DNA from: Mesaphorura yosii
Taxonomy: Eukaryota > Arthropoda > Collembola > Poduromorpha > Tullbergiidae
Direction: 5' to 3'
Length of the DNA stretch: 64,000 nucleotides
Assembly: GCA_009869945.1 (NCBI GenBank)
Contig: WIXG01000011.1
Span: 496,001 to 560,000, forward strand
Shown here: positions 27,611 to 61,403 of the stretch, piece by piece
Layout of the letters: each line of letters begins with the position of its first letter
How positions within the stretch are numbered: position 1 is the stretch's first letter
Notes under the pieces: generated by a model
Databases searched by the model: none
Seen by the model: the letters and a program-made list of their open reading frames with translations, nothing else
Told to the model about the DNA's origin: nothing
Made by a program: the position numbers and the translations under genes

Positions 27611-29371
27611 TTAGAGTTCTACTTTTGGGAACGATTTTTGAAAGGTACCGTCTTTTTCTAAGGAACTAAAGAACTTAACAACATTGCTCGCAAGAACCAC
27701 TGGAGCTTCGAATGCCAGGAAATGTCCCCCCTTTGACGCAATTTTGTAGCTGCGCAGGTCGTGGTACTTGTCCTTGAGTATCCATTGTGGTTGCGCACCG
27801 AATGCTTCCTTTGGCGGTTGGAGGCATGCCGTCGGAATGAAGACGGGAACACTAAAGTAAAGCAAGAGTTTCTTGTAAGATCCACGGGAAAGAGAAACTA
27901 GTAACCAGTGCCATTTTTAGCGGCTCGTCACTCACCGATCAATTTTATACTTGAACATTGTTGAGGTGAATCCTTCAGCATACAATCTTTGAGATGTCGT
28001 AATCGAGTTGGTCACCCAGTAAATCATGACGTTGTCGAGCAGGTCATCCAGTTTGTAGTGAGACTCGAGTCCACCGTTTGACTTGGACCTCCATTCTTTG
28101 TCAGTCCAGGTTGAGAATTTCTCGAGGATGTAAGCCAGGAGGCCAATAGGAGAATTTGAAAGTGCGGTGCCTATACAAAACATTAGTTTCAGGTTAGGAT
28201 ATACTTTCTATTTTACTGCAGTACTCGTGGCAGTAAACTAACCGACAGTATCAGGCTTAGTTGCTTGAATATGAGCGTAGCCAGACTCCTCAAGCATGAC
28301 CGCCCACTGGCCGGACAGGGGATACCCCAAACTGGCCTCTTCTGGTGACATGAACAACGTAGGGTGGATTGACGAGAGAATCCCTTTCAGTAAGCCCTTT
28401 GAGCCCATGTTAAAGCACATGTTCAAATGAAGGCCTTTCATGCTAGGAAAAACGGGAAAAAATTCACAATTATTGGAATTTCGAAGGAAGAGGACCTGAA
28501 TCTGTAAAGATAACATCAAGGTGATATACTTTTCCGGATACATCGACGCCATAATTGTTGTTATAATGGCGCCCCAGTCGCCACCTTGAGCATAGTACTT
28601 GTCGTGACCCAGTCGCTTCATCAACTTGTTAAAGATAGGCGAGATTTCTACGGGTCCAAGTCCGGGCTTATGCGCCTTCTCAGAGAATCCATATCCAGGC
28701 AGTGAAGGAATCACGAGCTGAAAGCCAAAGGACAGAAGCTCGTGAAATTAAACTTGCACGCATTGCATTTTTGCATGGACGCTTTGAACGTTATTAAATC
28801 AAGTTTATTATACCTCAAAATTGACATCGGAGTTCTTCGGATCGGTGAGCAATGGAATGACCTTTTGAAATTCCACAAATGACCCTGGCCAGCCGTGCAA
28901 AAGCAGAAGCGGTCTGGTGGCCTTGTACTTGGCGTTATTCGTGCTCTTCACATGCTGAAAATGAACCTCAATTCCATTGATCGTCGTCTTGAAATTCGGG
29001 TACTTGTTCAAATTAGCTTCACGTGATTTCCAGTCGTATTTCTCCAGCCAGTATTTTGCCACCGTCTTCAAGTAGTCAGAGTTGAAGCCGTACTGGAAGC
29101 CGGTTCCCTCAAGAGGTGGGACGAGACGGTCGCCATCCTTTGAAGTCTCAAGTGTCAGCCTGGCCTTCAAGTCAGCGAGTATTTTGTCACTGATGGCTAT
29201 TTTGAACGGACGAATTGCTACATCTTCTTTTTCACCTTTCTTGGAAGAAGGGCCCCAATGGGCGTTCTCGTCAATAACTGGCGGCGGGAGATCAGCAAGA
29301 AGGACGAACCATAGGTACGAGAACCCAAACGCAGGAAGTGCAAGGAGAAGAATTGTCACGAGTTTTCCCAT
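27611..29371 (-). CDS. Jheh: Juvenile-hormone-type epoxide hydrolase, copy 1
   Basis: Five exons 28814..29371, 28530..28717, 28243..28442, 27936..28170 and 27611..27851 give 473 residues. These are microsomal epoxide hydrolases that open epoxides (juvenile hormone, lipid or xenobiotic) to diols at the ER membrane. There is an N-terminal anchor (LVTILLLALPAFGFSYLWF). The EHN domain then includes IRPFKIAISDK, the pairs LNKYPNFKTTINGIEVHFQH and LLLLHGWPGSFVEFQ (oxyanion HGWP), and the nucleophile Asp in GGDWGA. The lid Tyr lies in SGYAHIQATKPDT, the acid Glu in PPKEAFG, and the base His in KGGHFLAFE. All catalytic residues are intact. The C-terminal tail (KDGTFQKSFPKVEL) is longer than in the next copies. 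The neighbouring pseudogene at 30.2-30.6 kb derives from this gene or a near-identical sister. Confidence 0.95.
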
Positions 29372-30164: not shown

Positions 30165-30612
30165 TTAAAGTTCTACTTTTGGCAACGACTTATCGAAAGC
30201 TTCGTCTTTTTCCAAGGAACCAAAGAATTCGACGACATCGTCTGCAAAAACTTCAGGCACTTCATATGCGATGAAATGTCCAGTCGTATTTTTCCAGCCA
30301 ATACTTTGCCACGCTCTTTTAAGTCGTCCGGATTGAATCCGTACTCGAATGCGATTCCTTCGAGTGGTGGAACGATTCCTTCGAGGTTTCAAGAGTCAGT
30401 CTTCTTTTCAGGTCAGCGGTCGCTTTGTCACTGATGGCGATTTTGAACGGGTGAATTGCTACATCTTCTTTTTCACCTTTCTTGGAAGAAGGGTCCCAAT
30501 GGGCGTTCTCGTCAATAACTGGCGGTGGGAGATCAGCAAGAAGGACGAGCTAAATTTATCATATTCCAAGCGCAAGAAGGGCGAGGAAGAGAACCGACAC
30601 AAGTTTCTCCAC
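30165..30612 (-). pseudogene. Epoxide hydrolase pseudogene, internally deleted
   Basis: Minus-strand fragment matching the beginning and the end of hydrolase copy 1. From 30612 downward it matches exon 1: the start codon is changed to GTG and the frame is broken by TGA within the anchor. It then reads PPPVIDENAHWDPSSKKGEK and continues to about 30330. Between about 30330 and 30290 it jumps to the last exon (GHFIAYEVPEVFADDVVEFF, ending SLPKVEL). The HGWP, nucleophile and lid regions are all missing. Over about 94 bases (30458-30551 against 29215-29308) I count only two differences from copy 1, so the duplication is young. It cannot encode an active enzyme. Confidence 0.85.
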
Positions 30613-31059: not shown

Positions 31060-32884
31060 TCATTTGGAAGCTTTGGACTTAGATTTCTCTACTTCGTCTA
31101 TAAAAGCAACCAAATCGGACGAGAACAATTCCGGTTCTTCCATTGCCAGGAAATGGCCTCCTCTCGCTGCAATGTTGTAGCGTCGCAAATCCTTGTATTT
31201 ATCTTCCAGAATGAATTTGGGATGTCCGCCGTAGGATTCGCTTGGCGGCTGGAGACAAGCTGCTGGCACATTGACCGGAACACTGCAATAACAAAAGTAG
31301 AGTCTCAAATTTTTCCGGTTCGTGCCACAATTAGCGATAATTGTAAAAGTTTGTAATGTGAAGTCTTACCGCTCAATTCCGCGTCCCAGTCCCCTGTAGC
31401 TGAAGTACTCCGAATAAAGCCTCGCGGCCGTCGTTGCTGAGTTCGTCACCCAATACACCATGATATTGTCCAGGAGTTCATCCAGCTTGAAGTTTTCTTC
31501 CAGTCCTCCGTTGGCTTTATACTTTTTGTTAATGTTTGACCACGTTGAAAACTTTTCCACAATGTACGCCAAGAGCGCAGTGGGAGAATTGGCCAATCCG
31601 ACCCCTTTTTAACATAATTTCATAATCATATTCGACTTCCTGCTTTCCTGCTTCAAATCTTATCGAAATCTCAAGGCACGAGGCACTTTTCTTCCTTACC
31701 GACAGTATCAGGCTTTGTGGCCTGGATATGGAGGTAGCCAGTTTCTTCTATTATCTGCGCCGTGAACGGTATGATCGGGTACACGAGCTTTGCCTCTTCC
31801 GGTGACATGAAAAGAGTTGGGTAGATCGCGGCCATGAATTGCTTCATAAAAGATTTGATGGTGAGCGATGCACAAAAGTTTGTATGGAAGCCAAGGACAC
31901 TGAAATAAGAGAAATCAGAAATCAAAGCAGAGCAGTCAAATTCAGGCCACCAGCTCACAAAAGAAGCTCGATTGTAGTCTTTCGCCCTGCCGATACTGGG
32001 CGTCTTGCACACACTAGCAAATGGCTTGGTGATTATGAGGTGGGTAAAAGTCGGTTTAATTGGCTTACTTTTCAGGGAACAATGAGGCCATGTCGCCTCC
32101 AATGACGAAGCCCCAGTCACCGCCCTGAACGTAGTACTTTTCAATTCCAAGGCGTTTCATGAGCTTGTTAAATAATTGAGCCAACTCGAAAGGACCGAGC
32201 CCAGGTCGATGAGCCCGCTCTGAAAATCCGTAGCCGGGCAGTGATGGAATGATGAGCTGAGAAACAAAAACAGTGAGTTACATGAAATCTCAAAAGCGAA
32301 CTGGCGAATTTCCTGTTTGTGCTGTATTACTTTACCTCAAAATTCGTGTCCGAGTTCTTCGGATCAGTGAGTAAAGGAATTGAATTCTGAAACTCGACGA
32401 AACTTCCTGGCCAGCCGTGAAGCAACAAAACTGGCCGAGTCCGCTTATATTTTGCATTGTTGGCACTCTTGACATGCTGAAAATGGACTTCGATACCGGA
32501 AATTGTAGTCTTGAACTGCGGATACTTGTTGAGCAGAACTTCGCGTGTCTTCCAGTTGTATTTCTCCAGCCAGTACTTTGCAACAGTTTGCAAGTAGTTT
32601 GTGTTGAATCCGTATTCGAAGCCAATTCCTTCGAGAGGTGGCGTAACGCGAGCGGAGTCGGCTGCTGTTTCAAGCGTCAGTCTTGCCTTCAAGTCTTTCA
32701 GTATTTTGTCACTGACCGCAATCTTAAATGGACGGATGGAAGTGTCTTCAGGCTGTCCTTTCTTGGATGCCGGGCCCCAGTACTCGTCCTGCATCGGAGG
32801 AATTGGCAAATCGGACAGATACCGCCACCAGAACCATCCAAACCCGATACCAACCAACAAAACAGTGATTGCGAGTCTCGCCAT
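31060..32884 (-). CDS. Jheh: Juvenile-hormone-type epoxide hydrolase, copy 2
   Basis: Five exons 32336..32884, 32069..32256, 31700..31899, 31370..31604 and 31060..31282, with the same positions and phases as copy 1, giving 464 residues. N-terminal anchor LAITVLLVGIGFGWFWW. All active-site landmarks are present: HGWPGSFVEFQ, Asp in GGDWGF, Tyr in TGYLHIQATKPDT, Glu in PPSESYG and His in RGGHFLAMEE. The intron 4 acceptor (AAAAAG before the GVGLANSPTALLAYI exon) has a weak pyrimidine tract but keeps the frame. Same orientation as copies 1 and 3. Substrate preference cannot be told from the sequence. Confidence 0.94.
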
Positions 32885-35651: not shown

Positions 35652-37279
35652 TTATTCATTTGTCTCGACTTCTTTCACGAAACTGATCACATCGTCCGCT
35701 AACAAAGCCGGCTCTTCAAATGCAAGGAAGTGGCCACCTCTCTCCGCAATGTTGTAACGTCGAAGATCCTGGTATTTACTCTGCAGTGCCCACTTTGGAT
35801 GTGCAAAAAGGATCTCATGAGGAGGCTGAAGACAGGCCGAGGGTACTTTTACTGCAAGTCTATGAAGAAAGGGTTTAAGAATGCGTGATTGTGATTCCAT
35901 GAGGTGCTCCGCTATTAACTATAATTTGAATGACCAGTCTATTGTACTTACTTGGACACTCCCAATTCTCTGGTTTTAGCACTCATCGCCTCGGCGTACA
36001 GCCTCATTGAGGGCGTGATGGTGTTGGTCACCCAGTAAACCATCAGGTTGTCCAGAATTTCATCCAGACCCGTGACCAGAAATGCGTTGTCATCCTTGGA
36101 AAAGTACTTGGGATTGTGGATAAGGCACTTTTGGAATTTTTCCAGAATGTAGGCGGCGAGCCCACTTGGTGAGCTTCCAAGCGAAGCACCTGAAAGCCAC
36201 GTAAAAGCCTTGGCTGTAATTACAAACGGAATGCTGACTGTAATTGAACACGTTTACCAAGTGTGTCTGGCTTGGTCGCCTGCAGGTGGAAGTACCCAGT
36301 TTGTCCAATCATCAAGGGAATCACCGTACTGATCGGGTAGCCAACCTGAGCCTCCTCGGGCTCCATGAACCAAGTCGGGTTGATTGATGCCAGAAAATAC
36401 TTTAACAAGCTTCTCGGGCTGTAGCTCAAGCACATGTTCAGGTGGATTCCTTTTACACTAAAAATAAAATTGCACATAATACACAGTGCCAAATAAAGAT
36501 GTGCTTCGAAAGTACACACGTACAGATTGTACAAGTTACCTTTCTGGGAACACTGCGCCCATAATCGTCGTGATTTGCGAGCCCCAGTCGCCAGCTTGGA
36601 CGTAGTACTTCGAGTGGCCGAGGCGCTGCATCAACTTGTCGAATATTTGTGCCATTTCAAGGGGCCCAACTCCTGGAGTCGACGGAGCCTCAGAAAAGGC
36701 GTAGCCAGGTAGAGAAGGAATGATCAGCTCAAAGCTGATGTCGGAGTCTGCTGGATCTGTGAGCAGCGGAATAATCTTCTGGAATTCGACGAAAGAACCG
36801 GGCCAGCCGTGAAGAAGCAGAAGTGGCTCCGTACGCTTGTACTTGCCACTGTTGGCGCTCTTGGCATGCTGGAAATGGATGTCGAGTCCGGCAATTTTCG
36901 TCTTGAAATGGGGATACTTGTTGAGCTGCGCTTCGCGAGTCTTCCAGTCGTACTTCTCCAACCAGTGCTTCAGAGCTACGAAGAGCTGTTCAGTGTTGAT
37001 CCCGTACTCAAGGGCGACTCCTTCCAGAGGTTGAATCAGACGGGACCCGGCCGCAGAAGTCTCAAACGTCAATCTTGCTTTCAGGTCGTTGAGGACGTTG
37101 TCGCTGATTGCGATCTTGAAGGGGCGGATTGAGACATCTTCTTGACCTTTCTTTGCCGCTAGTCCATAATAAGGATCTTCTGGCAGTTCCGGAATTGACG
37201 CATTGCCCAGGAGTACGAACCAAAACCAGGAAACGGCAACGGCCACCAGCACAATAATTACAGGTAGTAGTTTCATCAT
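35652..37279 (-). CDS. Jheh: Juvenile-hormone-type epoxide hydrolase, copy 3 (intron-loss form)
   Basis: Four exons 36540..37279, 36258..36457, 35952..36189 and 35652..35859 give 461 residues. The first exon is the fusion of exons 1 and 2 of the other copies: the read-through SDISFELIIPSLPGYAFSE crosses the position where they have an intron. Anchor LPVIIVLVAVAVSWFWFVLL. Active site complete: HGWPGSFVEFQ, Asp in QAGDWGS, Tyr in TGYFHLQATKPDT, Glu in PPHEILF and His in RGGHFLAFEE. GGDWG is QAGDWG here, a small change beside the nucleophile. Two adjacent ATGs begin the frame; I took the first (MMKLLPV). It is divergent from copy 4 with about 1.2 kb between the starts. Confidence 0.94.
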
Positions 37280-38446: not shown

Positions 38447-40142
38447 ATGGCAAAGCTTCTGCCGGTGATTACCGTGCTAATCCTCAGTATTGCCGCATCA
38501 TGGGTCTGGTTCGCCTTGCTTGGTGACCTGTCACCTCCCGACTTACCCGCAAACCCTCACTGGGGACCAGGGGCAAAGAAAGGACAGAAAGAAGACACCT
38601 CAATTCGTCCGTTTAAAGTCTCCGTTCCAAGCAGCATCTTGTCAGACCTGAAGACGAGACTCACGTTGGAAACGTCTGCAAATGGAAGTCGTTTAACACC
38701 GCCGTTGGAAGGAATTGGATTTCAGTATGGTTACAACTCCAATCACTTGAAGTCAGTAACCAGCTACTGGCTGGAGAAATACGACTGGAAATCACGGGAA
38801 GCTGCCTTGAACAAGTATCTACATTTCAAAACGAATATTTTCGGACTTGACATTCACTTCCAACATGTAAAGAGTGCAAATAACGCCAAGTACAAAGTGA
38901 CGAGGCCGCTTATTTTGCTTCATGGTTGGCCAGGATCTTTCATCGAATTCCAAAAGATTATACCTTTGCTTACTGATCCAACTGGCTCTGATGTCAACTT
39001 CGAGGTTCGTATTTTATGAGTATCCGATACCGATTTCTATTCGATCTGACAGACGTATGAGTTCATTTCTGTGCTTTATATCTTTAGCTTGTGATTCCGT
39101 CCTTCCCCGGATACGGATTTTCGGACAGAGCCCACAAGCCTGGCCTTGGTCCCATTGACATAGCGCAAATATTTGACATACTTATGGTGCGACTGGGTCA
39201 TGAAAAGTATTACATTCAGGGAGGTGATTGGGGTGCCAACGTCGGAACGTTCATGTCGGCTCTATTCCCTATGAGGTAAATTTTGCGTAAGGCGTACGTT
39301 ATTCTCAGAGTTGTACCAATTTGATAACACTGTGGTTGTTCAGGGCAAGAGGACTTCACTTAAACTGCTGTCTCACTTTTAATCCAAAATCCGCAATGAG
39401 ATTTTTTCTTGCATCGATATATCCGACCTTGTTCATGTCTGAGGAAGAAGCGTCCATCTTTTATCCGCTCTCAGAGTACATTCCCCGTGCAATTGAAGAG
39501 ACAGGATACTTTCATCTGCAAGCTACGAAGCCGGATACTGTTGGTAAGTCAATCCATTTCCTGAAACCATTGGCTTTTCCACTGATTGAAAACCAGAGGC
39601 AATCCGAGTTACGGATAATTTTTCTTAGGTGTTGGGCTTTCAAATTCGCCAAGCGGTCTCGCAGCTTACATTTTAGAGAAATTCTCAGTGTGGACTAACC
39701 TTGACTGGAAGGCAAGACCAGACGGAGGCCTGGCACACTTTAAACTTGACGAGCTCTTGGACAATGTCATGCTATACTGGGTCACGAACTCAATCACCTC
39801 GTCTGTACGATTGTATTCCGAAGCTTTGTCGAAGACTCAAGCCGAGAGGAATATGGATAGGTGAGAAAAATCAATCGATAAATCAAATCAGCCTTGAACT
39901 TCTTGACTTTTATATTGTGTCAATGCAGAGTGCCAGTGGACATCCCAGCGGCGTGCCTTCAGCCACCACAGGAAAAAGTTTACGCCATGCCAAGGTGGGC
40001 ACTGGAGCCATCGTATCACGATTTGCGTCGGTACAATGTTGCAGCGAAGGGAGGCCATTTCCTCGCATTTGAAGAGCCTGAGCTACTTGCCAAGGACGTG
40101 ATCGCATTTTTCCAGACGCTTGAAAAGTCCGGTACATTCTAG
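38447..40142 (+). CDS. Jheh: Juvenile-hormone-type epoxide hydrolase, copy 4
   Basis: Five exons 38447..39004, 39088..39275, 39344..39543, 39629..39860 and 39929..40142 give 463 residues. This is the only array member on the plus strand, so an inversion or a head-to-head duplication is implied. Anchor LPVITVLILSIAASWVWFAL. Active site complete: HGWPGSFIEFQ, Asp in GGDWGANVG, Tyr in TGYFHLQATKPDT, Glu in PPQEKVY and His in KGGHFLAFEE. The five-exon layout is that of copies 1 and 2, and the N-terminus resembles copy 3 (KLLPVI). A functional ER epoxide hydrolase is expected; whether it acts on juvenile hormone is not readable. Confidence 0.95.
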
Positions 40143-42317: not shown

Positions 42318-43086
42318 CTAATTAACCTTGTAGTGCTGGTAAGAATGCAATTAAAACTTTTAAAACTCAAGCCAGCTGCTTGAAGACATAAAATATTAAG
42401 AAATTTCTCGCGTTTTTTGGCACATGCTTTTGCATGAAAAGGATTAATTAAAGACGTCTGAAGCCCGAAATGCGATGGCTCGCATGCTTCCAAAGGCTAT
42501 ATCCAAATGAAAACCGTACCATTAATGTTGCAGCGCTAATGTTGTTTAGAGCTGCTATCATTTTTGTAGACAATTAAAAGTTTGTCATCTAAGGTCACTC
42601 AAACTCTAAAATGCGACACGCCGCCCTGCAATCTGTCTGAAGGTGACCATTGTATTGCGAGTTCCCACTGGGGGGTTATTACTGGTTTTCCTCTCAAATC
42701 AAACCTCTTGACAATATTTGGAGTAATTATAGAATATATTGGGTTCCTCAGTCACAACATGCACGTCATTTTTGAACTTGTCTATCGCGTCATGTCTTCT
42801 CAAATTGACTAAATTGAGCATGACTATCAAAGTTGCTGGAATTGCTAAACTTAAATTGAAGAAACGGAAAATTCCATTCTATGTTCCCGAGGATGGTAAT
42901 TGCTTTTTAGTCATCAGAGATTAACGCTTGCGTGCGAGTGCAAGAATGCTCAGGAACGTCTAGCGAACCAGAAAATTCAATCTTGCCCTTTCGTCACAGT
43001 AATCTAGTTTACTAAACGGTGGTTCCCGTTCCTAGTAAGTTCAATGTGGCAGTGCATTGGTCCGAATTATCCGTTCAAATACGAAA
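42318..43086. other. Intergenic within receptor array
   Basis: No supported gene. The frame at 42582-42812 ends near a hydrophobic TIFGVIIEYIGFLSHN that weakly recalls the last helix of the receptors, so a decayed receptor tail is possible. Confidence 0.35.
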
Positions 43087-44362
43087 ATGCTGAGTCCAAG
43101 AACGATCAGACTGTACAACTTCCTGTTAAAAATTGCAACGGCTCTCGGTTGTGTTCCATTCAGTTGGGATTCCGAAGACTCCGTACCCAAAATGGAGGTT
43201 CTGAGGGGCAGCGGACGGTTGGTGGCTTACTTTAACTTTGTTTTAGATACACTGGCCATGTTCCTCACAACTTTCGGACTCTGCCAGTTTATCGCAGCCA
43301 ACACGAATGACATCAGTCTAATTATTCCTGCATTTGTGTATGTTGGAAGTATCAGCTTTATCACAACACTGAAAGTTTCCGCGTACATGTATCAAGAAGA
43401 ATTGGCGACGATTTCAAACAAAATGTGTCAAACCTCGGCTCGACTATGTAAGTGAATGTGAATCCTGGAAATTTGATGCGCTTGCGTTAATTATGAAACA
43501 CTCTTTATTGTTCATTCAAAGTGTATGAGTATAACAATGAAAGAAGCACGGACACCGTAATCCTCGAGTACGGTGCACACATGTTTCTATTTCTGTCGCT
43601 GACTATTCCAATGGCCGGATTCGTCTACCAGCTCTTTGATCCAATGAACTTGTATACCTTCTATATCGGGCCAAATTTCAGTGGTCAGCTGGCCTACGTT
43701 ATTTTCAGCTCAGTTTTCCTGTACAACCAAGTGCTGATCCTCAACTTTGTGCTCTTTCTCTGGTTTGGTCCAATTTGTACGATAAATTACTGGCTGGACC
43801 AACTCATGTAAGCATCACAAAATATTTTAAGCCATACGGGTGTTTGTTACAATCTAATTTGGATTTAATTTGACCTTTTAGAAATTCAGTTAACGGGAGA
43901 AGGAAGAGCGCGGAGAAAGTTCTTCTCACGTACAATTCAGTTCAAGTCTTAGCGCTAATTAATTGGGACACGTTCTGCAGTCTAATACTGACGATATTTT
44001 TATTTGGGTGTGATATTCTTGGGATATCGGCTGCTACCTTATTAATTTTATACATCAGCGAAATGAGCTGGTTTATCATTTTCATTGTTATAAACATTGT
44101 CGTATTTGTGATCGAAGGTTTCAACTTTTCCTTCGATTTGCAAAGGGCATGCCTTCTGAAATCGTCTCGGCTTTTATACTTGCTTCATGTGAAAACCAAA
44201 AGGTCAGGGAAGTATCATCAAAAAGTCCATAACTCATTGTACCCAATTCGAAATCATTTTAGCCACTTATTCTTTACAAAACGGTCAACTAAGCTGACTG
44301 TATTTGGAATTATTTTTGAAAATATTGGCTCGCTTACGATTTTACTGAAGTCTTATTCTTAA
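43087..44362 (+). CDS. Gustatory-receptor-like seven-transmembrane protein C
   Basis: Three exons 43087..43447, 43522..43807 and 43882..44362 (phases 1 and 2) give 375 residues. Start MLSPRTIRLYNFLLKIATAL. Motif GCVPFSWDS (about residue 22), NKMCQTSARL at the exon 1 end, DPMNLYTFYIGPNFSGQLAY in exon 2, and a last helix LTVFGIIFENIGSLTILL. Topology and splice phases match the neighbouring copies. It is closest in exon 2 to protein D and the pseudogene at 48.4 kb (shared PMNLYxFYxGP). The acceptor of exon 2 (tcattcaaag) has a weak pyrimidine tract. AATAAA follows at 44379. Confidence 0.76.
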
Positions 44363-45329
44363 AACTGAACTATTCCATAATAAATAACATTCGAGTATCC
44401 ATCACCATTTTCAATGCACGAACCTGATCGAAAGATTTTCCAAGAACGAGAACTGTCGGAATATTCGATTGGGCCAGTAAATTGACTGTGTTTTATTCAG
44501 GAGTGAGTCCGCTCGACGGCTGAAAGATGTAGAAACTTGGAGAAGCGTCGTCCAGGTTCATCCGGTTCACTTCACCACCACGTTCCAAACGTTAATGCTC
44601 TAAAACTGAAATGAAATTGTTGGAAAACAGTGAAGACCAGTGAAGTCATGAGAAAACAAAGCGTGAGTTTTATTACTTGGCAGTCAAAAAGGAGAGCACG
44701 AACTGAACTTCACGAGAAAAACTAACTAAAGAAGTTTAAAGTCTCTTATCAGAAGACACCATCAGATAAGCCTACCTCTCTAGCAGGACAGATTTATTAA
44801 ACAAACCCCAAATCCCAATCTTATCAAGTCATGATTGTTAACTTAGCTATAATATTCTCATAAAAACTCACGTGCTCAGGTATATTTTATGAAGCCTCAT
44901 AAAATTGGTTGCAAGGCTTGCAATTAAAATATAAACTTCGGTTCCTTGCATACAATTTAATCGAAGTTGGCCATACTTGCCACAGAATTTGGCAGCACAG
45001 CAGGGTGAATGGCGTGGCCCCAGCAATGTTGTACCATTCAACCATTCATACCAACAGCCAGCAGAATGTTAGCGATGTAAAGTTCAGGACGTGTAAGTTA
45101 ATTAATTTTAATGCTTTTATTTTCGAAGTTTTATGATCAGCGAAACAAAAATACTGCATTCCCAAAAAAATTTTCAGCCACAAACGTTCACATTCGCACC
45201 AGTTCGTCAGTCGCTCTGAACTTGTGCTCGATTATAGCACATCAACGACAACAACTTTAATCAACCTTCCGGTACTCATCAAGAGTCGAGACAGAGCTCA
45301 GGAGCTCAGTTATCATTTACGTCCCCCAA
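44363..45329. other. Intergenic with a possible coding remnant
   Basis: 3' flank of receptor C. On the minus strand near 44498-44600 an exon-like tail reads ERGGEVNRMNLDDASPSFYI and ends in a stop followed at once by an AATAAA. An upstream AG follows a pyrimidine-rich run, but no partner exon is found. It may be a pseudogene scrap. Confidence 0.35.
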
Positions 45330-45648
45330 ATGTTGAGTCTGAAAACAATCCACGTCTACAGCCTGGAGTACACGCTCACAAGGGTCGTCGGATGCCTTCC
45401 TTTCGGTTGGCAGTCCAGAACCCAGTTATCAAAATGTTCTGAAGGAAAAGGCACGCTGGCAAGCATACTTCAACTGTTTCTTCGACTCATGCAATGCCTT
45501 GATCACATTAATTGACCTCAGTCATTTCGTCTCCATGAATTACCGGAATATCAATTTGATAATTCCGGCTTTCGTGTACGCCTCAAGCATTATCTTCATT
45601 TCGGTACTAAATATATGTGCGTACATGCACCAGATTTTGGCAAGCTAA
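45330..45648 (+). pseudogene. Receptor pseudogene, exon 1 only, frameshifted
   Basis: Resembles exon 1 of the receptor family. It starts MLSLKTIHVYSLEYTLTRVV with the family motif GCLPFGWQS (about residue 22). The frame then shifts near 45430. The other frame continues as WQAYFNCFFDSCNALITLID and NINLIIPAFVYASSIIFIS, the first two membrane segments, ending ILAS and TAA at 45646. No exon 2 or 3 follows. Non-functional as read. Confidence 0.8.
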
Positions 45649-45850
45649 GACCTCAATAGAAGCCCATGGACTTCTAAAATGTAAAATACGGTATTAGCGT
45701 AATACTAGCCGTAATCGTCGACTTTGAGTTTTGATTGGAATTTAGAGAAAAATTCAGCTTTAATATAGAGGTTCAGACAAGTTATATGTGTAGAATGGAA
45801 ATATTGAACAACCCAGCTTCCGGTAATTCCATATTTTAATATCCTTACCC

Positions 45851-47124
45851 CTACGCTCTCCATCCGATGACAATATCGGCAATGTGCTCAGTAATCAACC
45901 CGAATGTTCTCAATATAATAGAGCGCGTGGTTTTGAAGAGGTATCCAAAATGACCTTGAATTGGGGTTTGATAATTACTCACTAGTTGCAAGTACTTCGT
46001 GTCACATTTGAGGCGCATAAGGTGGAGGAGGTCCTTGGAATATAATATAGCCTGAATTTGCATGTTGAGCCCAAACATGAAGCCGAACACAACGAAGAAG
46101 ACAATGTTTGCAATAATATTTATGATGATAACGCTCAACTGGTCAGAGAATAGAATTAGCATCGAGGTGCCCACGACGCAGAGAATTGAGCACCCAAACA
46201 GGTACAAAGGCAGAATTAACGGACAGAAGGCATGCCAGTATGTGTTTGCATAGAGCTGCATTGCGTTGTACGTCGCCTGAATCTGCTCTAATGGTTTTTC
46301 TGACTTGATGACTTCGGTCCTGAAGAATAATAAATATGGAACTGAATTAGCATGAAAACATGTTCACTGAGGAGACTGAGGACGTGATAACAGATGAGAA
46401 CGTACATGGTCCGCTGAATCCAATAATTGGACAATATAACTGGACCAAACATGAATATGGTCATGAAGTTTAGAATGGAGATTTTGTTGTACAACAAGAC
46501 CATACTGAAGAAGCAATACGCAATTTGTCCGCCAATGTTTGGCCCGAAATAGAACCGGTACAAATTCATGGGATCGGGAACCTGGTACAGAAATGCTCCG
46601 ATTGGAATCGTCGCCGTCAAGATTATGAATCCCTGTGCGCTGGCGTAAAGAAGTTTGTCCGGTTTCTCATGACACTTCTTTATATCCACGCCGTAATATT
46701 TTGCTGAAATAATCAACGAGATTGCTTTAGGATGAATATTTGTCAAGATGAAAATCTTACCAATCAGTGTGGACGTTTGGAATAATTTATTTGCAGCGTG
46801 TATCAGGTCGTTTTCAAAAATATACGAGCTGTACTTGAGACAAGTTATCCAGTTGATAACAGCAATATATGTCAATCCAGGAATGATTCTGCTGAGCTTA
46901 AGCTGATAATTTGCAGCAATGAACTGTCCCAGTCCAATGGTTGTGACGATCGTGGCCACATCGTCCAAGAAACAGTTCAAGTATGCGAGCCAACGTGCTC
47001 GGCCCCAGAGTGGGTACAGTTTCATAACTGAGTTGTTGTCGTTCCATCCAAATGGGACACACTTGATGGCCGATGAGTATGTAAACAGCAAATTGTAGAC
47101 CTTGAGTGACTGTGAGGTCAACAT
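45851..47124 (-). CDS. Gustatory-receptor-like seven-transmembrane protein D
   Basis: Three exons on the minus strand, 46761..47124, 46406..46703 and 45851..46319, give 376 residues. Start MLTSQSLKVYNLLFTYSSAI; the open frame extends further upstream without a better start. Motif KCVPFGWND (about residue 23), NKLFQTSTLIG at the exon 1 end, DPMNLYRFYFGPNIGGQIAY in exon 2 and TFGLITEHIADIVIG near the C-terminus. Intron 1 is only 57 bases, a multiple of three, and has no stop, so retention would insert 19 residues. Transcribed opposite to A, B, C, E and F. A decayed relative lies just downstream at 48.4-49.4 kb. Likely a 7tm_7 chemosensory channel. Confidence 0.77.
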
Positions 47125-48439
47125 TGCGAATCTGGAGACGCACTTGTAACTGCCTCCACTTAACCTGTCTAACCCCGGACGCCGTATGCACAACACAGAC
47201 GCGCCGACGTCTGGCTTTAGAATTCTTTCAGCGTGACTGGCACAATTTAAAGTAAGCAATGATTATTTAAACCATAATCACTTTTGAATTGAGGTGGCTA
47301 TATCTAGATCCGAGATAATTTTTTAAATTTTAAACCATTAACTTGAATTCTTGAATGACGACACGCAATTCGGAGTATAACATACAATTTGCACAGCCGC
47401 AGGCTGGTCGCGAGCGCTTGCGTGTTACCAAAATACCAATTCATTTTTACCTGTTATAAGCGTTGCCTGTTTAATATTGACAAGACAACTGGCTCTGAGG
47501 AACTCGTACGCAGCTGGAAAGCGTGATAGTGATAGAAAGGAATTTAGGACGGTGAGATGGCTATCTTCTGGAGCTTCAACAAATAATATTACACAAGTAA
47601 ACATGGAATATGAAGATCGTACATGCGCCAGTATAGGGTAAATTATTCAACACGGCCGTCTTTCTTGATTGGAAGGAACGGCTGGCTCCCGGCCGAAGTT
47701 TTACTTGCACTTCCTTTGTAACCAATTAGGGCGACCAGGCGAATATTGGTCTACTTGCATCAGAAGGGCATAATTCCAACAAGAATAAAAGCAGCGACAG
47801 AAAGCTGGAAATGATGACTCGATTTGCAGTTACTGTCATGAGTTTGTAATTAAAGAGGAAAATATAAGACGGAGCTCATTTTCATCAAACAGTCATTAAT
47901 TTAAAATGCCACTCGAACGCTTCCAGTATTTCAGTTCCTTGCCATTTAAACTGTCAATGGTGTCACGGATTACTAAAGGCATCAAGTCACGATAGCTGAA
48001 GAAATAAATGTTGCTAGCAAGCAATAAATTCTGAAGATGCCGCTTTAATTGAAACGCGACGGTCAAAATCGAAGTGAATGAACTAGTTTTCTCGGAACGA
48101 CAGCCTGTAATTAAAAGCGTTCGTGCAAGATCTCCAGAAGAACCTTATAATTTATTTGGGCTGTCCTTCCGTGACGATCGCGCCATTTGTTTGTCTGCAT
48201 TGAAGTGGCAGAATCTGGTTCGAATTCTGGTCTGAACTGGTTCAATGGTCAAACTCCAGGAGATCATGCTATGTCTCTGCCTAATTAGTACTAGCATCGC
48301 CATTTTAAATTTATTCAAGGATCATCGACCTCAAGACACTAATTGATTCGAACGTAAAGAAAAATTCTGCTATGGACGAATAGTATTGGGCAAATTATTT
48401 AGATGGAACTTCCTCCATTCAGTCCGAAAATGAATCTCC
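47125..48439. other. Intergenic within receptor array
   Basis: Promoter side of receptor D and flank of the following pseudogene. No coding signal seen. Confidence 0.45.
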
Positions 48440-49385
48440 TTATCCCTCCGCTTTCCACCCGATGACAAGCGAGGCAACATTGTCAGCTATCATTCCAAAC
48501 GTCGTTAATAAACTCGAGGGTCTCGTTTTAAAGAGGTACCTAAGATGTCCTTGCATGGGGGTCTGGGATGTGTTCACTAATTGCAGGTATTTAATGCTGT
48601 ATTTAAGGTCGATCTGATGCGGGAGGTTTTCAGAAAGTAGTATACTATTAATCTGCAAAGTTGAGCCCATACATGAAACCGAACACAACAAAGAAGACAA
48701 TGTCCGCAAAAATATTAATAACTAAAAGGCTGAACTTGTCAGAGAATAGAATCAGCATGGAAGTTCCCACGACGCAAAGGAACGAGCTTCCAAACAGGTA
48801 GAGGCAGAATTAATGGAGAGAAGGCAAGCCAACACATGTCTGCATAGAGCTTAATTCTGTCGTACTTCTGAATATGCTTCAGTGGCCTTTCTGTCCTCAT
48901 GGCTTCGCCTCTAAGAAATTGAACTCAATTATTTACCTCATAGAATGGACAATATCTACAACTACAACTTACATGGTCCGCCGAATTCAATGGTTGAAGA
49001 CGATAGCTAGTCAAACATGAGTATGGTCATGAAGTTCAGAATGTAAATCTCGTTGCACAACAAAAGCATGCTGAAGAGGCAATACGTAATTTGTCCAACG
49101 ATGATTTGCCCGAAATAGAAGCGATACAAGTTCATAGGATCAGGAAGCTGATATAGAAACATTCCGATTGGTATCGTTCCCGTCAGGATCATGAATCCAT
49201 ATGCACAGAAGTACAGAAGTTTTGTTCGGTTTTTCATCGCAGGTTTCGGGATCGAGGTTATAGTGTCTGGCTGAGAAAGACACAGAGAACCCGTCATTAG
49301 CAACGCATATAAAATTCATACAAATAACTTCTAAGCGGGAATACTTGCCAATTAGTTTGGGCGTTTCGAAGAACTCTCGCTCTAC
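48440..49385 (-). pseudogene. Receptor pseudogene, close to protein D
   Basis: Exon 2 (about 49013-49260) reads LLYFCAYGFMILTGTIPIGM and PDPMNLYRFYFGQIIVGQ, very close to protein D, but ends in a premature stop after ILMFD. Exon 3 (about 48440-48900) is split over at least two frames (SDKFSLLVINIFADIVFF; YLQLVNTSQTPMQGHLRYLF; TTFGMIADNVASLVIGWKA). A stub of exon 1 (FFETPKLIG) ends at 49349 with a GC in place of the GT donor. The rest of exon 1 is absent. No functional product is expected. Confidence 0.85.
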
Positions 49386-50345
49386 ACTCCAAAACGAGAT
49401 GCGGTCAGAGAATTAGCAGGGCAGTTATAGATACCTGCGAAGAGTGGCAAGTATTTAAATGGCGAAGAAACTAATTACCAACAATAGCTTCATTGTTTAA
49501 AGCTGCATCAGAATCTTTGGAACTACGGTTCTCATATTTAGAAACTCTCCTTGAACTTAACTCCTGGCAATAATCAGGATTACGCATCACGCGGACGGCG
49601 AGTCATAAAGGTGCAGGTTCGTGCAAGACATGAAACGTTTGATAAATTTCGAAGTAGGTGTTTTAGATCAAATGTTGACACGCATTTGCCGAAATGTAAG
49701 TTTAAATAAATCTTTGCTTAACTTTCCAAGAACGACACGAAATAAGCTTTTATTAGCCATTAAAGGATATTCTTCAGAGGTCAAATTTGGCTTGTCATAT
49801 AAATGAATTTATTATTCAATTAGAAGGCCCAGAATAATAACCATTAAGATTTGTATCTGCATTGTCAGAAGGTTAAAACGGTTTGGAACGACATTTACTA
49901 TTCGCCGTCCGTGTCACACGATCAATGTCAGTGCCATTTATCCAGTCTGTAGAAGGGCCTCGTAATTTAATATTGGCACTAATGCGTTGAAGGAAAGTTT
50001 CCATCAAGTTAACACCCATGGAAGCCTTTTATCCTTCCCAGGATCGAATCCTCTTGCGTTAGAATTACTAGCCTCACTAGAGGGCTTCGCTCACCGTGTC
50101 GACCAACAGCTCTTCGTTTTGGTGCCACAGTTCGTCGCTTCGTCAAAATTTTTCATTAATCTCAAAACAATTGCGCGACTAAATGCTAGAGCGTGCGGGT
50201 TTACCACGATCAAGTCATTTCTAACCTTAGACCATTCAAGATCGCTCGCATAGTTCCGTGGTTTTAAAGAAGAGATTTTGATTTGCCTCAGAAAGCAAGT
50301 CTACGATCAAGCATTAGGTTAGACTGACAGCGTTTTGAAGTCAAG
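49386..50345. other. Intergenic within receptor array
   Basis: Between the pseudogene and receptor E. Two short accidental frames (49621-49806, 49987-50253); nothing supported. Confidence 0.45.
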
Positions 50346-51603
50346 ATGCTGTCCTCTGACACGTTGAGGCTGTACGACTTGCTTTTCCAGTTCGCCACCA
50401 AGACGAAAATTATGCCGTTTGATTGGGACAATTCTCCATCTGTGTTGAAATTGATTCCACCAGTCACAAGAAATCGTCGATACATGGCGTACTTGGTCAC
50501 CACACTTGACCTGATCCTCACCATAGCCTTGACGGCTGGATATTTTCACTATGCGTTCGTGTATCGAATGCCTAGCCGAATCATTCCTCCATTCGTGGCC
50601 AACATCGCGTTTGTATGGGGCTCAGTTTTCGCAGGCACTGGCTACACATCGCGGTCAGAAATCTTGGTCCTGGTTAATAAATTGTTTCAGACCAACGAGT
50701 ACTTGAGTAGGCTCATAAATGGACTGCAATTTATGGAAGTGATTACTCAAAATTGATGAGCCGTTTTTTTTTCTAGATACATACTTTGGAGTGGAGAAAA
50801 GGCTTGACCGTGCAATGTACCGGATTTGCAAGATGTACTTTATCATTGAAGGAGCCATAATTGGATCGGTTTTCCTGTACTTTATGCGACCCCGTGCTCA
50901 CGACAATTTGTACGAATTTTACGGTGGGACGTCCATTTTCGGCAAATCGGCCTTTTCATTTATCATAACCACAGTCGTTTGTTCCAAATACACTGTGATG
51001 TCGTTCTTCGTGTTCGTCATGTTCTTTTGTGGAGTTCTGCTAGACGTGTGCCAGAAACTGATGATGTAAGTTCGTCAGTTTCAGTGTGTTTCAATTCACA
51101 TTCAAATCATGCGTTCCTGTGCTAATTTCAGTGAATGCGTGGAAACCGGACGCATGACCGGTCACGAAGCTGTGTCAATGTACAACTCGTGCAGAATCTG
51201 CCAGCGTTTGTTTCAGAATTGTGTCGGGCCTGTTGTCTTTCCAGGGATGATTTTCATGGCGTCCAGCATGCTGGTGGTGGATGTATCCGGATTGATCATG
51301 TTTCATCTCGAAATGAGTGCTCTGGTCACCATCACCTTGGCCAATATAGCTGTGGTCCTCTCAACTGTGTTCGTCCTTTCATTTCGTCTGCTGCGAGCGT
51401 CCAACAGGCGCTCGACGGAATTTCTGAAACTGATGTCGCTGAAATATGGAAATGATGGCAAGATTGCGCGCAAGCTTAAAGGGTGCCGTCGGATTCAGAT
51501 ACGAATCGGGAACTTCTTTGTGGCTAAGGACATAACTATCCTGACCATCTTTGCCTTGATATCAGACAACATTGCTTCACTTGTCATAGCGTATCGTGAG
51601 TAA
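50346..51603 (+). CDS. Gustatory-receptor-like seven-transmembrane protein E
   Basis: Three exons 50346..50706, 50777..51065 and 51132..51603 (phases 1 and 2) give 373 residues. Start MLSSDTLRLYDLLFQFATKT. The family motif is altered to KIMPFDWDN. Other landmarks are YRMPSRIIPP, NKLFQTNEYLS, MRPRAHDNLYEFYGGTS before the fifth segment, and GNFFVAKDITILTIFALIS in the last helix region. The exon 3 start (CVETGRMTGHEAVSMYNSCR) is hydrophilic and cytoplasmic-looking. It forms a tandem pair with protein F, to which it is clearly the nearest relative. Probable chemosensory ligand-gated channel. Confidence 0.78.
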
Positions 51604-52424
51604 AGATTTTACTGCAATTGATTGCATTCCGTGAAGCAACCCATCAGCGTAACATCGAAAGTTTGAAGAATGCCTGAAACTCATTTCCATGATACGACTA
51701 GAAAAGAAAATGACGAAATTCAGTTGCAGATTTCTCCTCCAGATGTCTACCTCATAAACATTATATAAGTGATATTCAAACCAATTTTTAGGGCCACAAT
51801 TGCAGTTAAATAAACTATGGCTTCTTATTCACTGAAATGAGGACATAGGACAGAAAGTCACTAAAGTACAGGACGTGGAATGTTCCATCAAATTCCAAGA
51901 TACGCAAAAATTGACACGCAAATGAAAGTTTTAATGATTCATGGCTAAGTCGCTGGGGCACACATAACTTTAGGTTTAGCCTATTGTGGCAAAATATGTC
52001 ACTCATCATAATGGAACATTAACATTAGTTAAGGATAACTTCGTGTTACTGCCCGTGAAATAACCTAAGATACGTATCTTTATTGCACTGTAAAATGCTA
52101 TATCATTCGGGTAAGTGCTTCATAAGTTTGTGGCGCGGGTGACGACCCGTTACTTGGAATAAAGAAGCAATTTTTCCTTTCATGTCACGCACCACTATAT
52201 CACCGTCACGCATATTTCAGCACAGCACTTTGGGTCCCACATTGTTTACTTTTTCGCCACATCAAGAGAAAGATCTTATCAACATTTCATAAAATTAGTT
52301 TTTCAGTTCATACAAACCAGAACTGGAGGTGAGGGACTTCGCCAGAATTAATTTGTGCAGTTTCCAAAAATAAGGTACAGTCAATAATCGCTAGCAGTAG
52401 CAGTGAAAGCTGTATCAAATCGAA
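51604..52424. other. Intergenic between tandem receptors E and F
   Basis: 820 bases; 3' flank of E and promoter side of F. No coding signal seen. Confidence 0.45.
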
Positions 52425-53692
52425 ATGCTGTCCACTGAAACTCTGAAGCTGTACGACCTACTTCTCCAGCTTGCGACCAGAACAAAAAGCATCCCACTTG
52501 ATTGGGACAATTCTCGTTCCGTGCTGAAGTTGACCCCTCCAGTCACAAGAAAACGGCGGTACTTGGCGTACCTCGTCACGGCGCTTGATCTTGTCGCGTC
52601 CCTAGCCTTAATGGCTGGCTACCTTCACTACGCGTCTGTGTATCGCATGCCGAGCCGAATTATTCCCCCAATCGTCGCCTTCATTGGCTTCATATGCGGC
52701 TCAATTTTCGCGAACACAGGCTACACGTCGAGGTCAGAAATTTTGGTCCTAGTAAATAAAATTCTGCAGACGAATCAGCATTTGAGTAAGTTCACACTGA
52801 AATTCATGAATTTATTCGTTCGGAAATTGTTGTGGATCATTTTATATATTATATGGTTTTATTTGAAGAACTTTACTTCGGAGCAGACAAGAGATTTGAC
52901 CACGTGTTCGCCTTGTTTTTCAAAATATACTTAATGGTTAACGGAGCTGTAGCTGGGTTGGTGTTCCTGTACTTTATGCGACCCCGTGCTCACGACAATT
53001 TGTATGAGTTTTACGGTGGGACATCCATTCTTGGCAAGTCGGCATTTTCACTTGCCATGACCATTTTTGTTGCCAACAAATACGTTGTGACGGCATGTTT
53101 TGTATTCATCATGTTCAGTGGTGGATTTGTACTGCAAATTTGGCTGGATTTGATGATGTGAGTAGATAGACTGCCAGAAGCGGCATTGTTTCTTAATTTT
53201 CGTCAGCTATATAATTTCAGGGAATTCGTGGAAACCGGACGCATGACTTGTGACGAAGCTGTCTCGATGTACAACTCATGCAGAATCTGCCAGCGTATGT
53301 TTCAGAATTGCCTTGGGCCCGTCATCTTGCCGGTGATGATCTTTATGGCTTCGAGTATGCTGGTCGTGGATATATCTGGATTGATCCTGTTTTACCTCGA
53401 AATGAGTGTACTGGTCAGTATCAGCCTGGCCGACCTTGCTATGGTCCTCTCATTCGCACTCGTTATTGGCTTTCGTCTGCTGCGAGCTTCCGAAAGACGT
53501 TCGAGAGCTTTCCTCCGACTGATTGAGTTGCACTCGAGAAACGATCCGTACATCACACGCAGACTCAAAGGATGTCGTCTGATTCAGCTACGAATAGGGA
53601 ATTTCTTTGTGGCCAAAGATATAACCATCCTGACCATCCTTGCACTAATAGCTGAGAACGTAGGTTCACTTACCATAGCGTATCGAAAGTAA
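52425..53692 (+). CDS. Gustatory-receptor-like seven-transmembrane protein F
   Basis: Three exons 52425..52785, 52869..53157 and 53221..53692, with the same exon lengths (361, 289, 472) as protein E, giving 373 residues. Start MLSTETLKLYDLLLQLATRT, motif KSIPLDWDN, YRMPSRIIPP, NKILQTNQHLS, MRPRAHDNLYEFYGGTS and GNFFVAKDITILTILALIA. The exon 2 acceptor (tttatttgaag) is the weakest junction of the model. A recent tandem copy of E; identical 41-base stretches remain near 52966. Likely a functional receptor. Confidence 0.78.
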
Positions 53693-56735: not shown

Positions 56736-57377
56736 CTTGACCTTGATTGATCAGACCTAGCAATAAGGAGATGTGATGCGATTTGATTATCCACAAAGCC
56801 ACGCCACGCCACAAATCAGGCTCCAGTGCAGTATGACATTCAACTTACGGTATAGAATCGAGATTTGATGCACGCTGTTCACGCTGACCGTCTGGAGTTG
56901 TTGTTGATTGCTGGAGCTCAATCGAAATTCTAGATGGAACTGCAGAGTGCAGATGCGAAAAAAGACGAGGGCCAACGTAGCCGAGGATGAAGGCTGGACA
57001 TGAAGATGAGATGGCTGTTCAATTATTCAAACGACTTAAACTTGACTCATTTGCGTTGAAACTGGATAGACTTCCAAGGAGACAAGTTCACGACCATTAC
57101 AAAAAGGGGGCGGAGGAATTGTAAACGTTGAAATCGTTGAGAAGTGGCTTCGAAAAAGACGCCATTTGTTCATTTCATTATCCAGAATCAAGCAAGAGTT
57201 TGCGTTTAGTTAAACTAGCGACACCAGCATAGCGTGGCATTTCGAATTGTGAGCCCTGAGTACCTTACGCGGGTGTGGGCACAAAATTAAGATTAGCAAC
57301 GACCCAAGCCCGAACACCGAACGTGGGCCACCACATGCGAGAGCGAAATGTGCAAAACAAAATGCAAAAAAATCGCC
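56736..57377. other. Intergenic, no gene seen
   Basis: Promoter side of Pmp3-like copy 3 and 3' flank of the tRNA gene, whose terminator run is listed separately. Nothing else seen. Confidence 0.45.
57366..57372 (-). terminator. RNA polymerase III terminator of tRNA-Val
   Basis: On the minus strand a run of seven T begins 6 bases after the mature 3' end of the tRNA, the normal Pol III stop signal. Confidence 0.8.
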
Positions 57378-57450
57378 TGTCTCCGCCCGGGTTCGAACCG
57401 GGGGCCTTGCGCGTGTGAAGCGCACGTGATAACCACTACACTACGGAGAC
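57378..57450 (-). tRNA. tRNA-Val(CAC)
   Basis: 73 bases on the minus strand including discriminator A. The 7-bp acceptor stem GTCTCCG/CGGAGAC pairs perfectly. The D arm contains TAGTGTAGTGGTTATCA (internal A box). The anticodon loop TTCACAC gives anticodon CAC. The T arm CCCGG-TTCGAAC-CCGGG contains the B box GGTTCGAAC. No intron and no encoded CCA, as expected for a nuclear eukaryotic tRNA. Confidence 0.97.
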
Positions 57451-57734
57451 AACTAGCATGCAGTAGGCTGGTTTTTACAATGTTTTGATCTTAGGCACAG
57501 CTCTTGTGTTGGGAGACTTCTGTGTGGTTGCTAGAATTGGTTTGGCTCTGTGCTGCTTCATACAAGCGTTATCAGCAGCGTAGCATGCATATATGCATGT
57601 GAATTCAATCGAACTGCAATCTTGTGTGGTTTACGAATAAAGCGTTCTTTGATCAACATTTCCGAAGCAGTGCAGTGATTTATTGTTGCAAATGACTATG
57701 ACGTGATATGACATGACCTTCTTCAGGACTAAGC

Positions 57735-59517
57735 TTAGATGTCTATTATAATCTTTCCGGCTAATTCAGGTGCGTGACAGGTATGCTTTCGGTCAAATCC
57801 AGCGAATCCTTTGCTTTCGAGTAACGTAAATGACTCGATGATATTACTTGCGATGATGCTTGGAGATTGTTGGGATTCTTCGTTGTATCTGAGTATCTGG
57901 TGGTACTTATCTGACAGCAATCCCTGTGACTGCTGAGGAGCCACTGAATTAGACGGGTAGAATGTACACATTGTTGGCACAAAGATCGGGACACTGGAAA
58001 TAAAGAAATTCGCATTTCAGGTAGAGCGAAACTGAAGCACGGTCGATTGATTAGAGTACCTGTCCATATTGTACGACTGCTCCGTTTTGTTCAACTGATT
58101 GGAAAATATTCGCGAGGCGCTGATGATACTGTTCGTTAGCCAGTACACCATGACATTGTCCAACACATCGTCAACGTTCACAGCTTGGTCATTGTATTTT
58201 GCAGAATTCATTTCCAAAATGTAGGAGAGGAGCCCAGTCGGTGAATTCGCTAGTGCGACGCCTGAAATTGGGAATCCGGTCGGTTAACATTGGTTAAAGG
58301 GGTTCAGGTGTATGATTTGATGTCTTACTGATGGTTTCTGGTCTCGCGAATTGTGCAGCAGTTGAACCCGTCGATTCCAAATAAAATCCCGTGGCTCGAA
58401 GACTTTCATCTGACGACATTACAAAGTATGAAAGTGCTGCTCCGAGTAAATGCTTGACCAACGTCTTGGGATGCTTAGATTGGCACTGATGCAAGTGGAT
58501 TCCAATGACACTGCAGCAAGCAAGGAATGCACGCCAAAATGTAGACTTGTATTAGAGAAATACTCGTGGGCGCATAAATGCGTACTGGCGCAGTGCTGAG
58601 AACTTACTTTACTGGGTACAACGTGGCCATTGTGGTGGCAATAATCGAGCCGTAATCGTTTGATCCGTGAACATAAAAGCTTTCATGTCCCAAACGCTGC
58701 ATGAGTTTCAAGAGAATGTTTGACATTGCGGCGCAGCCGAGCCCTGGCTTGCTGGCTCCTTCCGAGTATCCAAAACCGGGCAGCGATGGAATAACAAGCT
58801 ACATGCAGAATCGGAATTGATTCTCAGTACAGATTTGATTTGACAATGCAACGGCACAAGTCGCCAAGTCATGCCACGTACCTCGAATGAGAAGTCGAGC
58901 TTCTCGGACTCCATCAGCAAAGGAATGAGTGCTTGGAACTCCGTGAAGCTGTTTGGCCATCCGTGAACTAGGAGCAAAGGTCTTGGATTCTTCCCCGTCA
59001 CATTCCTTTCGGTCCCAGGCGGAAATACATCACTCGCCTTAATTCTTTGGAAGTGCATTTGTAGCCCATTGATTGTAGTCACAAAGTGAGGGTACTTATT
59101 CAGTAGCTTGACTCGGTAAGCCCATTTATAATTGTCTCGCCAGTAACTGGCGATATTTTGCACAAAATTTGTGTCTACCACAACTTCGTTTTCAGTGATG
59201 CTGGCTTTTGTTGCCGCTGCTTTCGGGAATCGGTTGAATTTCAATTCTTCTGCCAACTTCGCCTGCAGTTGACTCAGTGCCGTTTTGTCGTCAACGCTAA
59301 TCTTGAACGGACGAATACTGGCGTCATTTATACTGGCTTGAATGGTCGCTGGATCGCTCGCAGTGCCCCAGTACGTGTCAGGCACTTCCGGTAGGCTTCC
59401 ATCGCTCAGCGAGGTGTACACTACGTATGCTGTGTACAGGGCGATGAGGGATAAGACTAGGTTGGAGTTTTTACTTCTGGATTTCGGTGCGTTGACGGGA
59501 GGTTTTGATTCGGCCAT
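57735..59517 (-). CDS. Divergent epoxide hydrolase paralog, probable pseudo-enzyme
   Basis: Five exons 58882..59517, 58608..58798, 58329..58510, 58060..58261 and 57735..57993, with junctions matching hydrolase copies 1, 2 and 4, give 489 residues. The N-terminus is hydrophilic before an anchor (LVLSLIALYTAYVVYTSL). The EHN domain is recognisable (IRPFKISVDDK, LNKYPHFVTTINGLQMHFQR). The oxyanion motif HGWPNSFTEFQ and an Asp in GSNDYGS (about 260) stand where GGDWG is expected. The lid motif GYxHIQATKPDT has become STGSTAAQFARPETIS (Tyr lost, about 325). The acid Glu motif is PSNSVAPQ, and the segment with GGHF is gone (ESQQSPSIIASN, about 443-452). Yet the frame is open and splice sites are good. 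It may have become a binding or scavenger protein. It lies 17 kb from the main array. Confidence 0.88.
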
Positions 59518-60394: not shown

Positions 60395-61403
60395 TTATTT
60401 GATTGGTTTCATGTTCCATAAGCCGTCATTCAGATAGTGGACAATTTCAACACCAATGCCGCGATTCACTTTAATTCTGCAAATCATCGCAAAGTAAAGA
60501 CATTGGTATCTTCTTCCTCAGCTCCGTTCCATGACACACATAGCATGACTAGGACTATAGATTTCTTAAAATCAATTAGCTTACATTTCTTCACTGGAGA
60601 GAGTAGTAATTCCGACGGCCATAGCATGAACTTTTCCTTCAGCCATGATAGCCTGAGAAAACATGAGACGAGTGGCATTAATTAAATATGAAGCACAAGA
60701 TAGAGATACAGCCGTTGAAAGATTCACTTACCACGATGGTATTTTTGGGAACTTCTGCTACCCTTCCGCCTTTTGACGTCATTCCTGGGCACATGACATT
60801 TGCACCACCTAAAACAAACTTTATCGCTCCTTTGTCGACTTGATTCTGAGCTAATAAGAATGGATCTGCGGAATTGCGAAATTAAGCATCGTAGACCTTC
60901 ACAGCGAAATCTTCAACAACCAGCAATGCAAAACTTACACTGATGTAGCAGCCTTAACGTTGGGAACCAGCAGCCTTCCCGCTGCTTGAAAAATAACTGA
61001 TCGCCATTACTGGACACAAGGATTTCTATATGGTCATGGCTGAAAATCAAAGAATCATAACGTGTAGGAGCAGTATTGGATAGCAAGATTACACATTTAT
61101 ACGAGGTCGATTTTGTGAATGGTCCTACTTTCAGTTCCTTACCATTTAACTAGCCTGAAATTTTCTTTCTTTGGCAGTATCACATCGATGTGAGGCGTTA
61201 TGTCTGGATATAACTGTGTCAGATTAACCTTGATTCCCTTCTGAACGGACGATTTCAGTTGCTGCGTACCGGATACGCTAGTGTCGTCGAATCTATAATA
61301 ATTTGCACCGAAGTAATAAATCAATTAATTGCTTTATTGCTACGCTACATCCTAATGCAACCATCACGCATGTAGGATTTTATTCCACTTACTTTTTAAA
61401 CAT
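60395..61403 (-). CDS. MCTS1: MCTS1, translation re-initiation factor
   Basis: Six exons on the minus strand: 61393..61403, 61143..61292, 60939..61039, 60732..60865, 60585..60652 and 60395..60476. They give 181 residues, exactly the family length. MCTS1 pairs with DENR to recycle 40S subunits and re-initiate after short upstream frames. The sequence starts [19 protein letters not shown] and continues with [21 protein letters not shown] and the PUA domain (about 90-170). In that domain I see [54 protein letters not shown] and the ending [15 protein letters not shown]. All splice phases close. No unusual residue is noted. Confidence 0.95.

Follow-up and report, generated by a model that had tools for sequence, protein, structure and literature searches.

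Release of the ester intermediate requires both a base and an acid, as is established for the epoxide hydrolase family, and the alpha/beta-hydrolases also include proteins without catalysis, such as GID1 and neuroligin. Other non-catalytic alpha/beta-hydrolases are known in Arb2, DUF687 and DUF3530, for which binding, scaffold and other non-enzymatic roles have been proposed (PMC11878206, in part). In epoxide hydrolases a tyrosine pair usually orients the epoxide and stabilizes the intermediate beside the Asp–His–acid triad, and in the Cif-like subclass His replaces one Tyr (PMC8244358, in part). The roles of these catalytic residues in a juvenile hormone epoxide hydrolase (JHEH) have been described, as have a transmembrane region and a YWG anchor motif (PMC5429749, in part), and five genes for JHEH-like proteins in Bombyx have been noted, with no residue data alongside (PMC3654919, in part). 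Among the matches listed from the open-access literature, we found no intact EHN epoxide hydrolase without the tyrosine pair, the acid and the base, which is a weak negative.

The gene considered here, EHD, occupies 57735..59517 on the minus strand of the window (a stretch of 64,000 nucleotides from contig WIXG01000011.1 of the collembolan Mesaphorura yosii). Its domain matches (Pfam EHN, 4e-22, 78.9 bits against a cut-off of 22.8; Abhydrolase_1, 5.4e-13, 49.6 bits against a cut-off of 25.8) and its 36–41% identity to five paralogues (EH1–EH5) place EHD, which combines an EHN domain with an alpha/beta-hydrolase domain, in the microsomal/juvenile-hormone epoxide hydrolase family. The best-scoring solved relative by sequence is Bombyx mori JHEH (PDB 4qla; phmmer 1.5e-54), with which EHD has in common the EHN plus alpha/beta-hydrolase architecture, HGWP and the nucleophile Asp; whereas 4qla carries both tyrosines, the acid Glu and GGHF, EHD is without these, and the phmmer match ends at residue 436, ahead of the base motif. 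EHD would resemble Arb2, DUF687 and DUF3530 in retaining the fold without the catalytic triad or residues (PMC11878206, in part), although these belong to families of the superfamily other than its own. Cfl2, a Cif-like epoxide hydrolase of Burkholderia, has been proposed as a possible non-catalytic pseudoenzyme, but it retains its epoxide hydrolase motifs (PMC8244358, in part) and EHD does not. Near the N terminus, as read by eye, a hydrophobic stretch (about residues 20–39; 59401..59460, minus strand) is followed by a YWG motif (59373-59365, minus strand). Sequons, of which there are two in EHD and none or one in the paralogues and JHEH, proved uninformative as to a luminal or secreted EHD arising through gained N-glycosylation.

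Five coding exons (59517-58882, 58798-58608, 58510-58329, 58261-58060 and 57993-57735, minus strand) encode a protein of 489 aa; the inner boundaries were taken from spliced alignment, the ATG (59517) and the stop (ending at 57735) were reached by extension by hand, and the model was confirmed by a check of the CDS (1470 nt, 489 codons). All introns are GT-AG and the sole stop codon is the terminal one. An earlier reading of the sequence only had given exactly these outer limits and had stated that exon phases persist with no internal stops, and the comparison of introns agrees. The EHD phases (0, 2, 1, 2) match those of EH1, EH2, EH4 and EH5, in the same alignment columns, at all four sites, and the three introns of EH3, which is without the first one, share column and phase with EHD; since the second-intron boundary of EH1, EH4 and EH5 was hand-picked among GT-AG options with the paralogues already seen, the match at that intron counts as independent evidence in EHD, EH2 and EH3 alone. 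An AATAAA polyadenylation-signal match (57679..57684, minus strand) begins 51 nt past the stop. A second allele or copy was also considered, and a DNA search of the organism's own genome matched only EHD itself. Shortly downstream lies a tRNA-Val (cac) at 57377-57451 (minus strand), and the upstream gene (60395-61403, minus strand) encodes Pre-PUA and PUA domains (Pfam 9.2e-23 and 2e-13, from a protein spliced by eye), its product being MCTS1-like by eye.

The genome searched (93 Mb, 1127 contigs) contains at least seven EHN domain matches, comprising EH1–EH4, EH5, one remnant and EHD. Four paralogues with the full catalytic set lie within 32 kb of EHD: EH1 (27611..29371), EH2 (31060..32884) and EH3 (35652..37279) on the minus strand, and EH4 (38447..40142) on the plus strand. 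EH5, on another contig (C947, 14.7 kb), is likewise intact with a full set and pairs with EH4 in the tree (97/95). The remnant (30165..30549, minus strand) is a decayed epoxide hydrolase in which an EHN fragment adjoins a C-terminal fragment. The same region holds a cluster of membrane-like protein genes (34287-35555 and 40923-53692) that by eye resemble arthropod gustatory receptors; five of its receptor-like frames submitted to Pfam gave no match over the cut-off. Just past the array, an open frame at 26467-26826 (plus strand) carries a Skp1-family tetramerisation domain (Pfam 1.5e-17). TTAGG repeats gave 21 overlapping matches on five contigs and the reversed control none, which fits an arthropod. 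Viral contigs gave 59 pattern matches, none of which was confirmed as a relative.

Catalytic positions were compared in an alignment of EHD, EH1–EH5, Bombyx JHEH and 80 bacterial relatives, the best of 571 matches listed. The bacterial sequences were fetched with the patterns WP[GN]SF[VTI]EF and LDN[VLI]M[VIL]YW; the lost catalytic positions lie outside both, and the first overlaps part of HGWP, so that counts for HGWP are biased. Four of the five catalytic side chains, namely both lid tyrosines, the acid Glu and the base His, are replaced or missing in EHD, and the set is intact in all five paralogues and in Bombyx JHEH. In the lid segment STGSTAAQFARPETIS (58329..58374, minus strand) the first Tyr is replaced by Ser325 (58365-58363), at a position that is Tyr in 79 of the 80 bacteria, EH1–EH5 and JHEH; around this site EHD is also shorter, by about 6 residues before it and 10–12 after it, varying by paralogue. 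Phe389 (58104..58106, minus strand) stands in place of the second Tyr, which is found in 78 of 80 bacteria, EH1–EH5 and JHEH. The acid position is occupied by Asn419 (57948..57950, minus strand; Ser or Asn, depending on the alignment), where the 80 bacteria have Glu (72) or Asp (8), and the base His, present in 79 of 80 bacteria, EH1–EH5 and JHEH, is absent. The nucleophile Asp260 (58657-58655), present in 79/80 bacteria, is kept in an elbow, HGSNDYG (58649..58669, minus strand), that compared with QGGDWG has one additional codon and altered flanks. HGWP, the oxyanion motif (58954..58965, minus strand), is kept as well, followed by Asn and not Gly. A tyrosine pair, an acid Glu/Asp and the base His of GGHF, by which a functional epoxide hydrolase is recognized, were thus not found in EHD. 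The sequence-only reading had named three lost catalytic residues (one lid Tyr, the acid Glu and the GGHF base) beside a persisting Asp and HGWP. Each of these losses is real, but the count rises to four of five with the change of the second Tyr to Phe; Asp and HGWP do persist, but with an elbow one residue longer and the Gly after HGWP changed to Asn. Neither the second Tyr nor the additional elbow codon had been mentioned.

The base is missing through an in-frame gap of seven residues (GGHFLAF) at 57869..57870 (minus strand). Exon 5 aligns with EH1 on both sides of this gap (score 112; shuffled mean 23.5; 0 of 500 shuffles as high), so that the base is missing in frame while the C-terminal helix, which remains in alignment, was retained; the alignments of each of exons 2–5 with EH1 and with EH4 score higher than any of 500 shuffles. 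An alternative last exon that restores GGHF was rejected, since exon 5 is homologous around the gap and no such exon occurs within 59517-50000 on the minus strand, where no GGH motif was found in any of the three frames (a range reaching 7.7 kb downstream of EHD). The view of EHD as an intact gene with catalytic loss survives this check.

More broadly, we compared the 64 positions that do not vary among EH1–EH5 and JHEH and whose conservation across the 80 bacteria is 90% or more. Of these, 44 are retained in EHD; for the bacteria, which co-defined the set, the median is 63 (range 25–64). Retention is 8/10 in EHN, 22/27 in the core strands and nucleophile region, 8/12 and 5/7 in the two lid parts, and 1/8 in the acid/base/C-terminal part. 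Among the 20 losses are both tyrosines, the acid and GGHF, together with three residues that neighbour the nucleophile (Q, G and W); the rest are either mild changes (Arg to Lys, Phe to Tyr) or located elsewhere.

In a tree of 20 rows EHD groups with EH1–EH5 (81/96); its branch is long, at 1.83 changes per site, and its amino-acid composition deviates from that of the alignment. The AU test leaves three alternatives standing: an EH1–EH5 clade without EHD (p 0.369), EHD outside EH1–EH5 plus JHEH (p 0.233) and EHD with JHEH (p 0.138). None of these is rejected, and the duplication may therefore reflect an older split. Common descent of EHD and its paralogues is supported by the shared introns, which give no date.

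To assess selection, we fitted a codon model to the 433 codons without gaps under two topologies of our choice, the first of which had the better likelihood. An omega of 1 on the EHD branch, the value expected of a decaying gene in the dN/dS check that the sequence-only reading had proposed, is rejected under both topologies (2dlnL 35.6 and 25.9), and an omega equal to that of the paralogues (about 0.12) is not rejected (2dlnL 2.3 and 0.0). The EHD estimates themselves (0.044 or 0.130) are unreliable owing to saturation, with third positions 31–35% identical, and to one fit at the upper bound of branch length; each is moreover an average over the whole branch, which could hide recent relaxation. 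Intact paralogues taken as foreground gave rejections of omega = 1 similar to that for EHD (2dlnL 27.8 for EH3 and 25.2 for EH1). By exon, rejection is clear in exon 1 (28.4), moderate in exons 2–3 (6.6) and borderline in exons 4–5 (3.9), from which the acid and the base have gone. Neutral drift simulated from EH1 to 40% protein identity produced 7–24 stops in 60 runs, against none in EHD; by contrast, the remnant at 30165-30549 shows decay, with stops and broken frames. The lack of stops, the rejection of omega = 1 and the intact introns and frame together speak for EHD being maintained rather than decaying, its C-terminal part less surely so.

EHD thus joins an intact gene and purifying selection to catalytic loss, the combination expected of a pseudoenzyme, with saturation and the borderline result for exons 4–5 as qualifications. 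On this basis we consider that EHD, within the microsomal/juvenile-hormone epoxide hydrolase family, is probably a pseudoenzyme that is anchored in the membrane and does not catalyse, a judgement that covers two possible roles. The protein would fold like its paralogues, would be incapable of epoxide turnover and would act through non-covalent binding. It may serve as a sink or sensor, with its old pocket occupied by a terpenoid or an epoxide lipid, or it may pair with the EH1–EH5 proteins in a regulatory or structural capacity; the first of these predicted roles is slightly ahead. One point against this reading is that Asp and HGWP are kept, which would be superfluous for a purely structural role.

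The second role, in which EHD would be a regulatory or structural subunit with EH1–EH5 at the membrane and its pocket a relic, overlaps the pseudoenzyme reading in its odds, and taken by itself we regard it as possible, if tentative. The hydrophobic N terminus and the YWG motif are retained, as are more than two-thirds of the deeply conserved positions (the 44 of 64 above), and the same genome encodes potential partners, namely paralogues whose catalytic sets are complete, four of them within 32 kb.

It seems improbable that EHD is instead a repurposed enzyme whose pocket has gained other chemistry. In favour of this, several residues around Asp260 are changed, and Asp260 itself falls in an Sm-X-Nu-X-Sm motif (S-N-D-Y-G); the base loop, however, is missing and not replaced, and the aligned acid and base positions are without Glu, Asp or His.

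We find it very unlikely that EHD is a covalent trap, in which the Asp would attack an epoxide and hold a stable ester adduct in the absence of base and acid. Microsomal and soluble epoxide hydrolases with a mutated His do accumulate the ester intermediate, and EHD retains HGWP and the nucleophile Asp, the latter being the residue for which the sequence-only reading had suggested such an adduct. However, both positions of the tyrosine pair that usually orients the epoxide are changed, and although the His of Cif-like enzymes indicates that a single Tyr loss is tolerable (PMC8244358, in part), EHD has Ser and Phe; in addition, the elbow has gained a residue and HGWPG has become HGWPN. Since Asp is the only catalytic residue retained, both half-reactions would be expected to run poorly, and the stable adduct is disfavoured. 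With the catalytic residues beyond Asp lost, we prefer non-covalent binding of a lipid or terpenoid, or partnership with the paralogues; the other suggestion of the sequence-only reading, that EHD binds a hormone or an epoxide, may hold. Least likely of all is early decay in a gene that has so far escaped a stop, for although the branch is very long, the rejection of omega = 1 is only borderline in exons 4–5 and the same array holds a decayed copy, omega = 1 is rejected overall, a gene drifting to the divergence of EHD should have gained 7–24 stops, and introns, frame and polyadenylation-signal match are all intact.

Finally, returning to the pseudoenzyme reading that we favour, one more specific form of it is that EHD might be a terpenoid-hormone or epoxide-lipid binder, acting as sink or sensor, that was derived from a hormone-degrading epoxide hydrolase. 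We put this forward by analogy and think it rather unlikely as so precise a proposal; a parallel is offered by the plant gibberellin receptors, which arose from esterases. If EHD does bind terpenoids of the juvenile-hormone type, it would represent a new class of proteins that handle hormones and, if this is true, a test case for a degrading enzyme turned binder.
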